Shown piece after piece: positions 31,930 to 58,189 of a stretch of 64,000 nt of DNA (positions within the stretch are counted from its first letter, which is position 1; each line of letters starts with the position of its first letter). The notes under the pieces were generated by a model. That model saw only the letters and a program-made list of their open reading frames with translations, was not told where the DNA came from and did no database searches. Where the stretch lies: contig BCJC01000003.1 in the NCBI GenBank assembly GCA_001600175.1, positions 2,108,001 through 2,172,000 of the forward strand. Reading direction: 5' to 3'. This DNA is from Erythrobasidium yunnanense. Its lineage: Eukaryota; Basidiomycota; Cystobasidiomycetes; Erythrobasidiales; Erythrobasidiaceae. Made by a program: the position numbers and the translations under genes.

Positions 31930-34246
31930 TTAAGAGGAAGGACGTGCTTGTAGTCTAGCTTCAGCGGCTTTTGCACGCCTCTCCCTCTCTACCCTCATTT
32001 TTGCCTCTTCGCTCAATCCCCGCAGCTGAGTCTGTTCCAGTACTTTCTGCGGCGCCGTCCCTGCTCCACCCAACCTTCTCGGCGCAGTAGAGCTGCTCAT
32101 CCTCCTCTCTTCTTCTTTCCTCTTCTCCACTTTCTCTTTCTCTAACCGAGCTATCTCTTCTTGAGCAGCGAGCTCTGCGTCTCGTTCTGCTTGGCGCTCT
32201 TTCAGCTTATCTTTCAATTTATTCTTCCGCTCTGTCTTCTTCGCGTTCTGCGAAGTCTCTTGCTCTTCCGTCAACGCAGAAGGTACGCGAGCATCATTTT
32301 CCCAGTCCCATAACGTAGGAAAGTCCGCATAGGCGCGCCTGAATACGTTTCGCACATTTCGAGATGAAGCACATTCATATGCTGTTCGAGGTGGGAGAGT
32401 TGACGACTGGTTTTCAGTAGCGGACGAGGAGGAATCAACGAAGGCTGAAAGTGTGGGATCGACATGTAGGTCGAGCAGAAGATATCGCGTGATATCCGGC
32501 TGGTCGTTTGATGCTGCGACATGTAGTAGCGTAGGCGAGCTCTTCGCTTCTTCCATCCACGATGGCAGGCGGCCAATCCATTTCTCGTTTGAGCTTGCGC
32601 CGTTGGAAGCAGCCGGCTCAGTTGCATCTATGACAGCAGCGCGCTGCCTCTCCAGGAATCCTTTAAGCGCTTCCAACCTTCCCTTCTTGACCATATCCAC
32701 CATTCTCTCCCACTTATCTCTCTCCACAATCTCCTCTCTCGATAATTTGGGTACTTCAGGTTTGGCTTCTTTCTCCTTTTCTGAAACTTTCGGCACAGGT
32801 TTCGGTTTAGGCTGCATCGCTGCGCGATACGCATCGTCGAGCTCTTGGAGCTCGGCAGCGGTAAGGTGGGAGAGCTTGACGCGCGTAAGCTCGGTGAAGC
32901 AGCGTACGAGCTCTGCTTGTGTAGGTCGGCGAGTAGGAAATGGGAATGTCCGCATACGAGAGTCCTCTGCAAACGCAAACAAACACATTAGCTGCGTTCC
33001 ATGATGATCCAATAAAGGTTGGTCAGGCAGGCTCACTCTTCTCCAAGACTGCATCTTCGTAATCATAGAAGATCTTCTGACTTGTCTTTGACGCTCTCAC
33101 GAAAATCAATTCGCTCCTTTTGACGTCCTCCTTCCAGCTCTCCAGCAGTGCTCTTATCTCGTCCCTCAGCATGGCCTCATTATATCTTCTGATCTGCGCT
33201 CCTGCAGATTTCGCATTTCCTTTCGCTGCATCGTTCGCAGACTGTGCACCTCCTTGTTTCCTTCGTGTAGTGTAACGGTGGAAAGTCTTGCTTTGCAATA
33301 CTTGTACTTCGCGCTCAACTCGACCATTCCGAGCTTGTACTTTGGGTACAAGCGACACGACCATCCCTGCGAAATGCCCGCCTCCGACAGCTAGTAGTGT
33401 CCATGTTCGGCTCGTAGCGTCTGTAGCTGGCCCTTTTTGATGCTTCCACCCTCGTTTACTCGTATCTTCCGTGACTTGTAAACTCCGAAGTTCGGCCAAC
33501 CAAGGTACTTCAGTCGCTTTCTTGACAGCTGAAGGGAAGATCGTCCGATATATCCCAAATTGCGTATCTGCTATCAGGTTGTTCGCCTCGAACCAGAGAA
33601 GCGGCGAACGTGGTGAGGCAATGTCGATGTCTTCGGTATCCGAGGGTGCGTCGTTGTTGCTGATCTTCTGCTTGGCGAGCACGCGAGCTACTTTCGTCTC
33701 GTCTTCTGAACCTTCGTCTGAAGTTGAGCCTTCAGAGCTTTCCGAAGCTGAGCCAGTTAGAGAGTCGCTGAGGGCTGATGGGACATTGCACTTAGTAAGA
33801 GACGAGATAATATGCATATTATACTCACCCTCGACCAATCCTTCCCACTCTTGCTCGCCAACAGTACTCTTGTTCGCCAGTCTTCTTTTCACATTATATC
33901 GATGCCAGTCTGTCGTGAAGTGTGATCTCTGCTCCGCTATATCATCGAATGTATCTGCTCCACAGAGATTGCATCCCAGCGCAGATATCCGTGATTTTGC
34001 AGTGCCGTCATCGCCAGCAGCGTTCTTCTTCGATGATGATGCTGATTCTTCTGAAGCTTCGCCAGTACTTGTGCTTGCATGACCGCCTAAGGGAGACCGT
34101 AGTGCGATGACTTGGAGCAATTCTTGCGGGAGAGCAAAAGCATACAGAGGTCCAGCAGCGCCAGCCAGCAAAGGATGTCTAGGCGAGGCAGCAGCAGCGG
34201 GAGAAGCAGCGCCAGATCGCGCAGGTGAAGTGTCAGCTGACACCAT
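31930..34246 (-). CDS. VMS1: VMS1/ANKZF1 peptidyl-tRNA hydrolase of ribosome quality control
   Basis: Vms1/ANKZF1 releases stalled peptides from tRNA on 60S ribosomes and recruits Cdc48, notably protecting mitochondria. In order: a C2H2 finger of the Rei1 type (CNLCGADTFDDIAEQRSHFTT, then DWHRYNVKRR); acidic linkers; the VLRF1 domain (TWTLLAVGGGHFAGMVVSLV, KTFHRYTTRRKQGGAQSAND, GAQIRRYNEAMLRDEI) with the GGxQ-type catalytic Gln; a segment typical of the family (FPFPTRRPTQAELVRCFTEL); ankyrin-like repeats (SPTLLHVAASNDQPDITRYL); a long charged helix; and a C-terminal VIM-like element (LRGLSEEAKMRVERERRAKA) for Cdc48. Introns near 33770-33828, 33030 and 32968. Start ATG at 34244-34246. Confidence 0.93.
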
Positions 34247-41766: not shown

Positions 41767-42940
41767 ATGCGCTGGGTACTCACACGCGAAGACTCCTCTA
41801 TGCTCGAACAACACCGCTGACGCAGCGCGTTTAGGTACCTCTCGAAGCCAATCCGGAAGTGTTTCAAGAAGTACAAGGCCCTTCTCGTGCTGCATGTTAC
41901 CCCTTCTCATGTCAACCTTCTGCTAGTGGACGGCTTCGCTGGGTTTGAAGCCAGAAGACGCGAGTTTCTGTGACATTTACGGCCTGGACCCAGATCTCCT
42001 GTACTGCTCCTGTCCTAGTCTCCTGCTGCTTGCTACTCTCACTGACATCCGCCTGAACTCGCAGAGCCTTCGTACCGCGACCGGTATATGCTGTCATTCA
42101 GCTGTTCCCTGCTTCCGAAGGCTATTGGGAAACACGCAAGAAGATGGACGATGAGCAGAAGGATCAGCCCTTACCTAAGAACATCATGTTCTTCAAGCAG
42201 ACTGTAAGCTTTTCCTCATAGTTACATATGTAATCAGGAAAGTCGGCTAATTCGGCTTTACATAGATCGGTCAGTGAGCATTGGATGCATTGTCTGCGAC
42301 AACAGTTGACATCAAGTGTTGGCTACGTATAGGTAACGCCTGCGGTAAGTCTAAATGCGATTGCAAGCCAAACAAGTACCGGAAAATAAGCATGCTCTGC
42401 AGGAACCATGGGAATTTTGCATGCAGTCGCAAACATCCCAGTCAAGCTTGGCAAGTGATACAGAACCCAGAGTAGTTTCAGTCTTGTCTTGCTAATCAGT
42501 CCAGTGTAGACCCATCATCCGCACTGGCCAAGATCTTTTCCGACTGCAAAGATCTTTCGCCCGCTGAGCGTGGTAAATACCTCGAAACATGCACAGCACT
42601 TGAAGCTGCACATACCTCGACCGCACAAGGCGGACAGACAGTTGCACCTGATGCAAATGATGATGCACCTCTGCACTTCTCGGCTTTTGTGGCCGCAGAT
42701 ATCGATGGCCAGAGGAGCATCGTCGAGTTGGACGGTGGTAGAAGAGCGCCTACGATCCATGGACCGCTTAAGGGTGATCTACTAGAGGTGGGTCAAGGAA
42801 AGACTGAGCCTCTTACGCCATCCAAGCTGACAATGAGTCAATCGCTACAGGGCGTCGCTGAGATTGTCAAGAAGCTGATGGCTATGACAGAAGATATCAA
42901 CTTCAGCTTGATAGCGCTCACAAAGCCAGCGAAGGCCTAA
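41767..42940 (+). CDS. YUH1: Ubiquitin C-terminal hydrolase, UCH-L3/Yuh1 type, eight exons
   Basis: A cysteine protease (peptidase C12) that trims small adducts from the C-terminus of ubiquitin and related modifiers. Exons 41767-41775, 41835-41870, 41927-42000, 42065-42203, 42266-42269, 42333-42344, 42403-42440 and 42500-42940 sum to 753 nt, a 250-residue protein (family about 230-250). Motifs: MRWVPLEANPEVFQEWTASL, DIYGLDPDLLAFVPRPVYA, KQTIGNACGTMGILHAV with oxyanion Gln and catalytic Cys, LHFSAFV with catalytic His, and IVELDGGRRAPTIHG with catalytic Asp. The motif around the catalytic Cys is assembled from four exons, two of them only 4 and 12 nt. It ends KPAKA at 42940. Confidence 0.93.
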
Positions 42941-47288: not shown

Positions 47289-49173
47289 TTAATGAGCACC
47301 ACCACCAGCTGAGGCGGAGACGAGGTCTGCAGCGTCGTAGCGGCGGCCGGTCTTCTCGGCGTGAGCTTGGATGTCGACAACGGTGGTTCGGAACTTGCGG
47401 GCAGATACGCGCTCCTCGAAGAGGATGTCCAACTCTGCGTAAGTTCGGTCCTTAGGCTCAGGGAGACGGAAGAAGGTCCAGGCAGCGGAGAGAACGCATG
47501 CACCGGCCCAGAAGAAACCGGCCTTCTTGCCCCAGTTCCAGCTGACGGGTGAAAGCATTCGGGGGAAGAGAATGTTGTTGATGATTCCGACAACGTTATA
47601 TGCAGCTCGGGCGAAGACGACGCTCTTGGCACGGAGACGAGTGGAGGGGATCTCAGCTACGAGGCAGTAGCAGACTGGGCCGACTGTGAACTGGTAGAGG
47701 AAAGAGTAGAAGAAGACGAGGGATCCAGCGGCCCATGAAGCGCCTGAAGACTTCTTGAAGCCAGTGCAACCGACGGCGAAGAGAACAGCTGCCATAGAAG
47801 CAAGACCCCACAAGTAGAGCGGTCGTCTACCGAACTTGTTTATCGTGTACCAAGACGACATCGTACCAATGGCTCCGAGAGCGTACTGGCAGAGGGAGAG
47901 CGTGAAGGCGTTGGAAGTGGCGAGACCGGCTTGGATGTAGAAGACAGTCGAGAAACCGATGAAACCGGAACCGGACAGAGTTTGAATCATCCAGACCATG
48001 GAAACAATCTCGGTTCTGCGGAGATTGACACCTCTGAAGAGATCAAGGTAGCTTTGACCGGCATTGACCGAGATTTCCATCTCGTTGGTAACCTGCATCT
48101 GGGAGATACGCTGCTCGATGTCGATGGGGACGGCGCCTGGCTTGTTTGAGGAGATTCTCTGGAGCGATCTGCGAGCATCGTCAAGGCGTCCCTTGCGGAC
48201 GAGGTACCATGGAGATTCTGGTGCGAAGAGAGATGCGACAAGGATGGGTACGGGCCAGATCCACTGGAGGGCGAAGGCTGCGAAAACAGTCGGTTCAGTC
48301 TCATCGCCGGTAGATCAAAGAAAGACGCAACTTACGAAGGCGGTATGCCCACTCATCGTTGACATCGTACTGGGAGACACCCTTCAAGACACCGGAGGAG
48401 ATAAATTGACCCATGACCCAGCAGAGATTGACGTAGGTAGTAAGGTAAGGGCGGAGAGGGGTAGGGCAGACTTCGGCAGCGTAGGCAGTTGTCAGGGTTT
48501 GGAAAACACCCCATGGGATACCGCAGAGAAGCTCTCCGACAAGTAGCATTTGAATGTTGTGGGCGAAGAAGGTGATGAAGATGAATCCAATGATTGCGAC
48601 CAGGGAGATGGACATGGTTCGAAGGTATCCGAATCTGTCGCATGCCCATCCGTTCGCCGCGAGACCAATAAGAGAACCGACTTGGACTGCGTTACTGAGG
48701 CCGGATTGCCATGCTGGGCTGATGATATACTCATTGGGCCCGATTTGAGTTCCGTACTTCTTCTGGAAAGCTGGGAGACCGTAGAAGGAGTTGATCATGG
48801 TAAGATCGAAACCCTCCATAACGATGGCTGTGGAGAAGATCATGCTCCACCTGTAGGAATCTGTCTTAGTAGATATACGAAATCCAGCACTGAGATAGAC
48901 TTACATTACTGCCTTTGGATATGCCTTGAAGGCAGCCTTGATGCCCATAGACTTCTCCGCAGCAGTGGCCTGACCCGCATCGTCGACATCGACCTGCTCT
49001 AGGGCACCCTGGCCCATGTCGGGCTTTTCGTTAAGTTCTTGTTCATAGTGTTTGGGCGCTTGGGCAACTGATACGACAAGGCATAAGGGTCAGGTACGTT
49101 GTGGGGAAGCAGAGTAGAGAAAGCGGGACAGCAACTTACTGCCCTCTTCGCCGTAGGCCTTAGCAGTAGACAT
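47289..49173 (-). CDS. Alpha-glucoside (maltose) / H+ symporter, MFS sugar porter
   Basis: Twelve-helix sugar porter of the Mal11/Agt1 branch. Start ATG 49171-49173 (MSTAKAYGEEG). The N-terminal cytosolic part is acidic (ELNEKPDMGQGALEQVDVDD). Then come TAIVMEGFDLTMINSFYGLP, GLAANGWACDRFGYLRTM (the PESPR-type loop-2 motif region), LLCGIPWGVFQTLTTAYAAE, CPTPLRPYLTTYVNLCWVMG, FIGFSTVFYIQAGLATSNAF, NKFGRRPLYLWGLASMAAVL, SFLYQFTVGPVCYCLVAEIP and RLPEPKDRTYAELDILFEER. The YVNLCWVMGQFISSGVL and YQFTVGPVCYCLVAEIPSTR signatures are characteristic of fungal alpha-glucoside permeases. Introns near 48268-48338, 48850-48905 and 49070-49139. Divergent from the maltase gene. Confidence 0.92.
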
Positions 49174-55011: not shown

Positions 55012-55353
55012 AGCTTCGAGCATCCTATGACATCGATACGTTGACTCCCGCCCAAGCAGTCACAATAGCGGCTCCGAGCTTGACTTGTTTCGTATATGCA
55101 GCACAGGATGCGTTCGTCCAAGCATCCGACGCATCAGCACACAGCATCAGAAGCATCGGCGGTAACGGTGAAGTTCTTGCGAGTGCAGTGTCGCCAAACA
55201 GCAGAGATGAGAGATAGACCTTGTGAATACTGTGAGCTTGTCTTCCACTTCGTCAATTGATAAGTTCATAGCCAATCTCGCACAACTTTTGATCTCCAGA
55301 AGAAAGAAGGCGACTTTCTGGACAGTGACCCTATTCTTTGATTGCGAAAGAAC
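55012..55353. promoter_or_regulatory. Upstream region of the FluG-like gene
   Basis: 342 bp between the relic and the FluG-like ATG. No gene is seen. Confidence 0.35.
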
Positions 55354-58189
55354 ATGGCGTCGCAAGACGACGTCGACTTGTTGGATGGATTGTCGCTTGA
55401 AGACTTCATTGAGCGCTGTCCGCTCGTCGATAATCACTGCCATGCACTTCTTCCCTTTAATCAGCAAAAGCAAGAAGATCTTCTGACAATCACATCCGAA
55501 GCATCTGGCGCAGCTTTATCTCATGCTAGCAGTACATTGGCGCACCATCGCGCAGTCAAGCAGCTATGCCAACGCGAAGAAATCCCATTGCGCAAGACAA
55601 CAGCGGAGAGCTGGAACGCGTACCTCGAACACCGAAAATCGCTTACGGAAGAGGAATTTACGAGGCGCAGTATGCAAGGTATAGAGACTGTGCTGATAGA
55701 CGATGGAATAAGACACGCATCCACTCCCCATCCGTACGAATGGCATTCTAAATATACACGAAGTCCTGCAAAGAGGATAGTACGCATCGAAACAGTGGCA
55801 GAAGACTTACTGGAAGCCTCAGCGAAGATTGCACAAGAGGATCTGAAGGACGGCTCAGATATGTCGGAGTGGTCTTTCTTCAACCCGTTTGAACCGGAAC
55901 TATGGGAAGCCATCGATAATCTGATGGACGACAAAGAAGTGGTAGGCTTCAAGAGCGCCATTGCTTATCGCACTGGCCTGGCAGTCATCCCTGCAGTCAC
56001 TCAGGTGCAGCCAGCGCCTAAAGAGGTTATGCAAGAAGTAGAAAATATGGTCAGAGCACGCGTCCTGAAGAATACTCCTATTCGTATCAATTTCAAACCA
56101 CTCAATGATTGGATCGTCGATACACTGGCAGCGGGGATAGATTGTAAGGTCAAAGAAGGCTCGCGAGCCAAACCTATCCAATTCCACACCGGTCTAGGCG
56201 ATAACGACCTTACTTGGACACTAGCAGATCCTTCCCATCTGCAAGCATTCATCAAGCGCTGGCCTACCGTTCCCATCGTCCTTCTACACGCCTCTTACCC
56301 CTTCACTCGCCAAGCAGCCTACCTCGCATCCGTCTACTCGAATGTCTACTTAGACATAGGCGAGATATTCCCGATGGTATCCAGAGACGGTCAAAAAGCT
56401 GCACTACGCCAAGCATTGGAGCTCACGCCTACTACAAAGGCATGCTGGTCTACAGATGGGCATTTCTACCAAGAGACATACTCGCTTGGCGTATTGCAGT
56501 CGAAGGAAGCGCTGAAAGAGGTACTGGGTGACATGGTGTGGAAGGGCGATGTTAACGAGAGACTGGCGAAAGAGATCGTGAAGGACCTCTTCTTCAATAC
56601 TTCAAACAAGCTCTACGACCTCAAACTGCCGTTCAAGCTCCTATCAGCTTCGCAAACACATCCACAAGGCTCGTCTCCATCCACTGTCACCAATGTCGGA
56701 ACCAATCTTGCACATCTTCAGATTTTCCTTGCCAAACATCCCTCTGTAAAGTACATCCGCCTATCCTGGACAGACTACACAGCTACAGTTCGGGCACGAG
56801 TGTTCACTGTTCCATATGTACTATCTACTCTCAGCTCTCCCACCAGCGATGGGTCCCTCTGCGGCATTACTGCCGACAATATATTGACTTTACAAGACGA
56901 CGCTGCGGGCATACCCGATTTATCGGCCGTAGGAGAGCTGCGCCTCCATCCGGACTTCAGTAATCTCAGACTGCATCCTCGTATCGGCGGGCGGCGACAA
57001 AAGCAGGAATACGCATGTGCCATGGGTCATTTCTACGATGAGAGGATATCGTCTAAAGATCCTAGGTGCCCCAAAGTAATACTGGAGAGTGCAATCCAGG
57101 AAGCTGCGAAAGCGGGAATCGAGAACCTCAAGTTCGGATTCGAGATTGAGTTCTGTCTCTTTGAGGCAGATGCGCTGGAGAAGGAACATAGACTCGTACC
57201 GATAAGTACAGCACATGCATGGAGTACTGGCACGGCCCTCAATGCAGCAGGCGGCAAAGCTTTAACGATACTGGAAGAAATGATGGAGGCGCTTAACGAT
57301 AGTGGGATAGAGACATACATGTTTCACTCTGAGAGTGCACCCGGTCAATGTAAGTTCAACTGCCCGAAGTATCGATTAAAGCTGAAGTATAGTTCCAGAT
57401 GAAATACCTTTAGGCCCGCTTCCGCCTATGGCTGCAGTCGAGCAATTGCTGCACGCCAGAGAAGTCATAAGCTATATCGCAAGCCTGCACGGCTATCGAG
57501 CAACACTACATCCCAAGCCGGTAGCGAACCAAGCTGGTACTGGTGCACATCTACATATTTCTTTCCCTCCTTCTTCTACTTCTTCTTCATTCTGGGCAGG
57601 CGTACTGCATCATCTTCCAGCAGCTTGCGCGTTCACGCTGCCTAATGAAGCTAGCTATGCACGCATAAAGGACGGAAGTTGGTCCAGCTCGACTTGGCGT
57701 ATATGGGGCGATCAGAATAGAGAAGCACCACTGCGCAGGATCAGTCAAGAGGATAACCATTGGGAGATCAAGTGCATGGATGGGCTGGCTAACCCATACT
57801 TGGCTGCTGCTGCCATTCTGCACGCCGGTAGATTAGGCGTCGAAGCTGGGAGGCCACTACCTTCACCTTGCAACGGTAAGCATGATTAAACAAGATGCAG
57901 CAACAAGCTTTTCGCTGACTTACGTGCTTCCGTCTCATGCACAGTCCAACCTGGAAGCCTTTCCGACGAAGCCCGCATTGCAGCTGGAATCACAGACCCC
58001 ATGCCCAGGAAGCTCGACGATGCTTTACAAGAGCTAGAAGATTCTTCAAACCAGCTTGCGAACGCACTGGGTCCGGAAGTAGTCAGACGGTACGTGCAGG
58101 TGCGACGTGCCGAAAGACAGAAGCTTCGTGATATTGCAGATGCACAAGGAGAAGCAGCTGCTATAGCATGGATGGTACAGAGGTACTGA
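55354..58189 (+). CDS. fluG: FluG-type fusion: amidohydrolase domain plus type I glutamine-synthetase domain
   Basis: Start ATG 55354 (MASQDDVDLLDGLSLEDFIE). The N-terminal half is an amidohydrolase-related domain: metal motif LVDNHCHALLPFN, later FHTGLGDNDLTW, IVLLHASYPFTRQAAYLAS, VYLDIGEIFP and CWSTDGHFYQETYSLG. The C-terminal half is a GSI-like glutamine synthetase: YIRLSWTDYTATVRARVFTV, FGFEIEFCLFEADAL, SAPGQYEIPLGPLPPMAAVE, HPKPVANQAGTGAHLHISFP and NHWEIKCMDGLANPYLAAAA. Two introns (about 57353-57402 and 57874-57942) split the end; it stops at 58189, giving about 890 residues, close to Aspergillus FluG (about 865). FluG makes or handles a sporulation signal in Aspergillus; whether that holds here is unknown. 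Confidence 0.9.

Follow-up and report, generated by a model that had tools for sequence, protein, structure and literature searches.

The gene at positions 41767–42940 (+) of the 64,000-nucleotide stretch of Erythrobasidium yunnanense DNA that was analysed in this work (referred to here as the window) is probably a functional deubiquitinase gene of the UCHL3 type. Three short spliceosomal introns of an ordinary kind would interrupt its active-site motif, so that the internal exons between them are of 4 and 12 nt. As judged from its sequence, this locus encodes a UCHL3-type ubiquitin C-terminal hydrolase (UCH) belonging to the peptidase C12 family; the protein looks ordinary and it is the exon structure alone that is unusual. 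Considered separately, the 12-nt exon, which carries the catalytic Cys, is very likely to be real, and the 4-nt exon, which consists of the letters ATCG, is likely to be so. The genome in which this gene and its relatives were sought is rich in introns and comprises 20.9 Mb in ten contigs, and the UCH gene is located on contig C3.

The identification of this gene as a UCH, which had been proposed in a preliminary description of this DNA, is well supported by profile and structure comparisons. The predicted protein shows a match of 192 bits (cut-off 27) to Pfam Peptidase_C12 (PF01088), extending over positions 1–196 of the 211 in the profile, and its best solved relatives are the entries for UCHL3 (1uch, 6qml, and others; E about 4e-45), followed by UCHL1, with UCHL5 and BAP1 being far weaker. 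In the alignment to UCHL3, the residues Gln85, Cys91, His166, and Asp185 are all present and the Q-x5-C spacing is kept; based upon their UCHL3 equivalents, we take Q85 to be the oxyanion Gln and C91, H166, and D185 to form the catalytic triad. The UCHL3-like form of these enzymes is short and single-domain, without the long extension of UCHL5 or BAP1, and the protein described here, which is 253 aa long, is of this form. The domain, the Cys-His-Asp residues and the oxyanion Gln are common to UCHL3, UCHL1, and yeast YUH1, all of family C12, and the motif KQTIGNACGT seen here corresponds to KQTISNACGT and KQTIGNSCGT in these relatives, from which the gene differs in exon structure only. In the family search with PF01088, the gene was matched in two blocks (profile 30–87 and 97–196), and the part of the profile around the catalytic Cys (88–96) was missed. 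Among the matches of this search it is the sole UCHL3-type copy, the other PF01088 locus of the genome (L001, C3:247744–248448, minus strand) being apparently UCHL5-like. The latter locus has the motif HQVINNACAT in one frame, with no intron in the Cys motif. Prokaryote genome contigs and viral contigs were also searched for relatives of the UCH protein and none was confirmed among them.

The coding region is divided into eight exons, all on the plus strand. Coding exon 1 (41767–41775; 9 nt, ATGCGCTGG) encodes MRW, of which RW corresponds to the RW of UCHL3, and it is preceded at a distance of two codons by an in-frame stop (41761). Coding exons 2 (41835–41870; 36 nt, VPLEANPEVFQE), 3 (41927–42000; 74 nt), and 7 (42403–42454; 52 nt, GTMGILHAVANIPVKLG) were placed by spliced alignment. 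The last residues of coding exon 4 (42065–42203; 139 nt) are FFKQT, which include the oxyanion Gln, and this exon is followed by intron 4 (42204–42265; 62 nt, GTAAGC..CATAG), which has a branch-like CTAAT 15 nt from its 3′ end. Micro-exon 5 (42266–42269; 4 nt, ATCG) then provides the Ile codon and the first base of a Gly codon, and beyond intron 5 (42270–42332; 63 nt, GTCAGT..TATAG) micro-exon 6 (42333–42344; 12 nt, GTAACGCCTGCG) contributes the remainder of this Gly, Asn, Ala, the catalytic Cys and the first base of the next Gly. Intron 6 (42345–42402; 58 nt, GTAAGT..TGCAG) contains a weak branch-like site (3/5), and coding exon 8 (42505–42940; 436 nt including the stop) carries the catalytic His166 and Asp185. 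Joining of exon 4, ATCG, GTAACGCCTGCG, and the exon from 42403 yields KQTIGNACGT, as the preliminary description had reported, and its coordinates and letters for the end of exon 4, the two micro-exons and the three introns match the sequence. The presence of the catalytic Cys on the 12-nt exon is likewise borne out, both by the joined reading and by the match to Peptidase_C12, and so is the statement that omission of the 4-nt exon leads to a frameshift, while skipping of the 12-nt exon deletes the equivalent of four codons, Cys included, in frame. The exons had also been said to be eight in number and to total 753 nt, or 251 codons. Although their number is correct, a sum of 753 nt is obtained for the seven exons from 41835 to 42940 with the stop; the full eight amount to 762 nt including the stop (253 aa plus the stop), and the frame is open throughout the 253 codons. 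If the last bases of intron 5 are read in frame with exon 6 (42329–42344), they give ATA GGT AAC GCC TGC, or IGNAC, and duplicate the Ile-Gly that comes from the 4-nt exon. This is probably a coincidence, as a TAG ahead of GT yields an NTA-Gly reading.

The two tiny exons were placed identically in all four spliced alignments that were carried out (to human UCHL3 or UCHL1, with introns of either 38–160 or 30–330 nt). These alignments, the main listing of splice paths and the shuffle tests were based upon GT-AG introns only. When the minimum intron length was set at 40 nt, 655 GT-AG paths were found, of which 29 gave open peptides, and the path with both micro-exons was at the top with a score of 80 versus 66; when introns from 30 nt were admitted, the runner-up was a path with another 4-nt exon (score 70). 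Relative to the full product, the PF01088 score was reduced to 167.8 bits without the 12-nt exon, to 82.1 without the 4-nt exon and to 79.5 without both of them, and the product truncated in a retained intron 4 scored 82.7 bits. The loss of the 12-nt exon thus costs 24 bits and that of the 4-nt exon 110 bits, the latter through the frameshift. When the sequence between the firm exons was shuffled and the alignment scores were compared (n = 100), the score for both tiny exons was not reached by any shuffle, nor was that for the 12-nt exon alone, whereas the score for the 4-nt exon alone was reached by 7 of the 100. In 20,000 shuffles with introns of at least 40 nt, an open 4-nt exon occurred at random in 22.8%, one leading to QT[IV][GSKNAPC] in 2.8%, and one leading to QTI and then G or S in 0.85%. 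On protein score alone, the 4-nt exon is hence weaker than the 12-nt exon, but it is well supported once the splice signals are counted. In a splice-aware model, trained on the splice sites, branch sites and lengths of 150 other introns from this genome, the arrangement with the 4-nt exon scored 63.6 bits versus 35.1 for the next GT-AG model, and none of 4000 shuffles reached 63.6. A pseudocount in this test gave introns without a branch-like site a positive value; as this favours the shuffles, the test is conservative. The lengths of introns 4 and 5 (62 and 63 nt) are close to the genome median of 64 nt, and introns of 129 nt or more comprise 2.7% of the 150. If micro-exons are defined as internal exons of at most 15 nt that have usable spliceosomal signals and keep the motif in frame, both of these predicted exons belong to this category, the 4-nt exon only if the GT-AG reading is preferred to the GC-AG alternative that is considered below.

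This alternative, which we regard as unlikely but which is the strongest of those considered, has no 4-nt exon. Exon 4 is extended by GTAA up to a GC donor, and a single GC-AG intron of 125 nt (42208–42332, plus strand) takes the place of intron 4, exon 5, and intron 5, which results in KQTVSNACGT, an equally good active site. It requires one intron fewer and is simpler, its QTVSNAC is near the QTISNAC of UCHL3, and when GC donors are admitted it constitutes the second-best path (76 versus 80); the Pfam scores (191.2 versus 192 bits) do not separate the two arrangements. However, its donor, TAA/GCTTTT, has neither A nor G at +3 and is also without the A at +4 and the G at +5, and four bases 5′ of it there is a GT donor whose strength is average (55th percentile). 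With a share of 1–3% assumed for GC donors in the scoring, the total for the GC-AG intron was −4.6 to −6.2 bits, whereas introns 4 and 5 reached +16.0 and +13.1, respectively. Additionally, GC is found at positions +5/+6 in 53 of the 150 introns, and a GC that fixes the frame is therefore a cheap coincidence. The 12-nt exon holds under both the GC-AG arrangement and the GT-AG model with two micro-exons.

In the GT-AG model with two micro-exons, the donors of introns 4, 5, and 6 are at the 55th, 50th, and 92nd percentiles among the 150 introns and their acceptors at the 25th, 17th, and 100th percentiles, respectively. The branch-like site is good in intron 4, fair in intron 5 and weak in intron 6; a level as low as that of intron 6 (3 or less) was observed in 5 of the 150 introns of the genome, which counts against the model. 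The donors of introns 1, 2, 3, and 7 (at 41776, 41871, 42001, and 42455), viz. GTACTC, GTACAA, GTACTG, and GTGATA, are very weak, which likewise counts against the model. Unlike the three donors around the tiny exons, they are in the 1st–2nd percentile of the 150 and have no G at +5.

For comparison, the same spliced alignment was carried out on Ras-family, ubiquitin-E2, Arf, and phosphatase loci, using human references. The loci taken were 30 of 50 Ras matches, 23 of 23 for E2, 20 of 24 for Arf, 13 of 13 for phosphatase, and none of 25 for actin. The first of these alignments gave 36 distinct products, 15 with scores below 350 were left out, and the final count is based upon the 35 genes with a score of at least 350. 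With introns of up to 330 nt, these 35 other genes contained 179 introns (median 65 nt) and 144 internal exons, and for 11 of the latter, distributed over nine of the genes, the predicted length was at most 15 nt, in GT-AG models only. Seven of the 11, ranging from 5 to 14 nt, were not reached by any of 100 shuffles: a 6-nt exon in RAN, 12-nt exons in a Rho-type gene and an E2 gene, exons of 8 and 14 nt in a Rab5-like gene, and 5-nt exons in a second Rab5-like gene and in Rab11. Their margins over the best of the 100 shuffles were thin for the 14-nt (0.5 points) and 8-nt (2 points) exons of the Rab5-like gene and for the 5-nt exon of Rab11 (4 points). The loci L023, L020, L010, and L014, in which exons of 5–14 nt were called, correspond to Rab11, the two Rab5-like genes and RAN. 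Both of the called 5-nt exons sit in the nucleotide-binding loop (P-loop motif) of Rab genes. A 13-nt exon in L044 was reached by 2 of 100 shuffles; a 15-nt exon in L058 and exons of 15 and 11 nt in L089 were outside the shuffle test, and the two in L089 look spurious. Two further calls proved false. A 4-nt exon in CDC42 (L009), which 3 of 100 shuffles reached, was a product of the 160-nt intron limit and was gone with longer introns, and exons of 14 and 3 nt in ARF1 (L057) were also gone once introns longer than 160 nt were admitted. Tiny-exon calls by spliced alignment consequently need care. The UCH gene seems, from these predicted structures, to share its tiny-exon habit with other genes of this genome.

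Exons of comparable size have been described in other organisms. In plants, 1-nt exons are established for APC11 and VPS55, and the rice gene Os08t0562700 has adjacent exons of 5 and 12 nt that were validated by RT-PCR sequencing (PMC8831610). The latter, although it is a plant gene, resembles the UCH gene in having two neighbouring tiny exons of nearly equal sizes. For a 1-nt exon in the P450 PKG motif of Fusarium CYP621A, there is support from SRA reads of two species and from 20 orthologous genes (PMC12940212). As in the UCH gene, this tiny exon is within a conserved motif, where it restores the phase, and it was deduced from homology to the motif and from an apparent intron of excessive length; however, it is of 1 nt and has read and ortholog support, whereas the UCH exons are predicted from genomic sequence. 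The same paper (PMC12940212) mentions a Phanerochaete P450 whose I-helix motif contains an exon of 8 nt, and the shortest of the micro-exons in the P450 genes of Phanerochaete chrysosporium is 6 bp (PMC1184071). These genes are also from a basidiomycete and have short introns with tiny exons across many genes, but they belong to a different gene family. Exons of 4 nt are known from human MPC1 and TNNI1, that of MPC1 being constitutively included (PMC9929638). Like the ATCG exon, these are of 4 nt and no multiple of three; the MPC1 exon, however, has very long flanking introns and depends upon exon definition, in contrast to the 62–63-nt introns of the UCH gene. Among the Tremellomycetes, intron-rich genomes similar in size to the present one have been reported, mostly with 5–8 introns per gene (3.2 in Trichosporon; PMC5103461). 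The matches listed in searches of the literature on micro-exons (Cryptococcus/Ustilago, Tremellomycetes and intron-rich basidiomycetes) and on UCHL3 splicing included none on this gene. The structure of the UCH gene is real, but it is of an already known kind, exons of 1–5 nt having been verified in fungi, plants, and man. The earlier statement that 4 nt is near the lower limit of spliceosomal exons is contradicted by the 1-nt exons of plants and Fusarium and by those of 4 nt in human MPC1 and TNNI1 (PMC8831610, PMC12940212, PMC9929638).

In splicing by intron definition, short introns are recognised across the intron, and there is no minimum exon size. Introns 4–6 of the UCH gene would most probably be removed constitutively in this manner: introns of 58–63 nt would be recognised as units, for which the size of the exon is irrelevant, and after the removal of either neighbouring intron the tiny exon would become part of a larger one. 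For both of these reasons, constitutive splicing is the simplest reading. The mature mRNA would specify a standard Cys91-His166-Asp185 enzyme with the oxyanion Gln85, and we infer its activity, as well as the actual splicing and its constancy, from the gene structure. Skipping of the 4-nt exon would lead to a frameshifted dead product of 108 aa and skipping of the 12-nt exon to a protein without the Cys, and such mis-spliced products are regarded as errors rather than regulation. The preliminary description had suggested instead that splicing could act as a switch, so that the pair of tiny exons would regulate the choice between an active and a Cys-less enzyme. We consider this to be highly improbable. 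Omission of the 12-nt exon does keep the frame and drop the Cys, and a regulated fungal micro-exon is known from Trichoderma (Xlr2 of T. virens; PMC11121469). However, the suggestion finds no support in the donors around the tiny exons, which at the percentiles given above are average to strong and give no hint of regulation, and several other housekeeping genes of this genome also have predicted tiny exons. A built-in version of such a switch, to which we would assign a slightly lower probability still, is that the GTAACG with which the 12-nt exon starts becomes a new donor after the upstream junction; its use would delete four residues, including the Cys, in frame and produce a UCH that binds ubiquitin but is catalytically dead. 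The regenerated donor, TCG/GTAACG, through which recursive skipping could take place, ranks at the 3rd percentile compared to the 92nd for the authentic donor, and recursive splicing at this site was rejected because of this low rank.

Other divisions of the same region were also considered. A single GT-AG intron of 113 nt (42204–42316) followed by a 28-nt exon (42317–42344) would give QT-CWLR-IGNACGT, with an insertion of four residues, and there is very little chance that it is correct: although its frame is open (path score 66) and IGNACG is the natural read-through across TATAG, the Pfam score is down to 181.4 bits, the acceptor CATCAAG is at the 1st percentile, the top branch-like site is 3/5, the splice-aware total is 31.7 bits, and the Q-x5-C spacing seen in UCHL3 and UCHL1 is lost. 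Among the other candidates that were rejected, an alternative 4-nt exon, GAAA (42238–42241), required an intron of 34 nt and placed Glu at the position of Ile (33.9 bits, Pfam 187.9), a 31-nt exon, the GT-AG runner-up at 35.1 bits, introduced an insertion of nine residues, and a 13-nt exon scored 29.1 bits in the splice-aware model. Paths with AT donors and AC acceptors gave the same peptide only through a different partition of the same bases, with GT..AC and AT..AG as the intron ends. That the UCH locus is a decaying pseudogene with a partly accidental fit, as the unusually weak donors in four of its seven introns might indicate, is scarcely credible, given its 253 open codons, the presence of every catalytic residue, a match of 192 bits across nearly the whole domain, and its being the only UCHL3-type copy found by the family search, where the other PF01088 locus looks UCHL5-like.

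The biology of the enzyme itself is ordinary. The active site of this gene could, however, easily be overlooked by gene finders, as without its two tiny exons the gene appears truncated or dead. The genome may be rich in exons of 5–15 nt, including those called within the nucleotide-binding loop in each of two Rab genes, and if such exons are frequent, this species would be a good fungal system for examining how very small exons are spliced amid short introns.

Some other features were observed elsewhere in the window. Two overlapping ORFs at 31930–34246 (minus strand) match consecutive pieces of the Pfam bVLRF1 profile (157.4 and 37 bits) and are perhaps a Vms1/ANKZF1-like release factor gene. 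An ORF at 47289–48098 (minus strand) matches part of a sugar transporter (Sugar_tr, 129.7 bits, profile 238–452 of 452). Lastly, the ORF at 55342–57402 (plus strand) contains an Amidohydro_2 domain and then the beginning of a Gln-synt_C domain, an order known from fungal FluG-like proteins.
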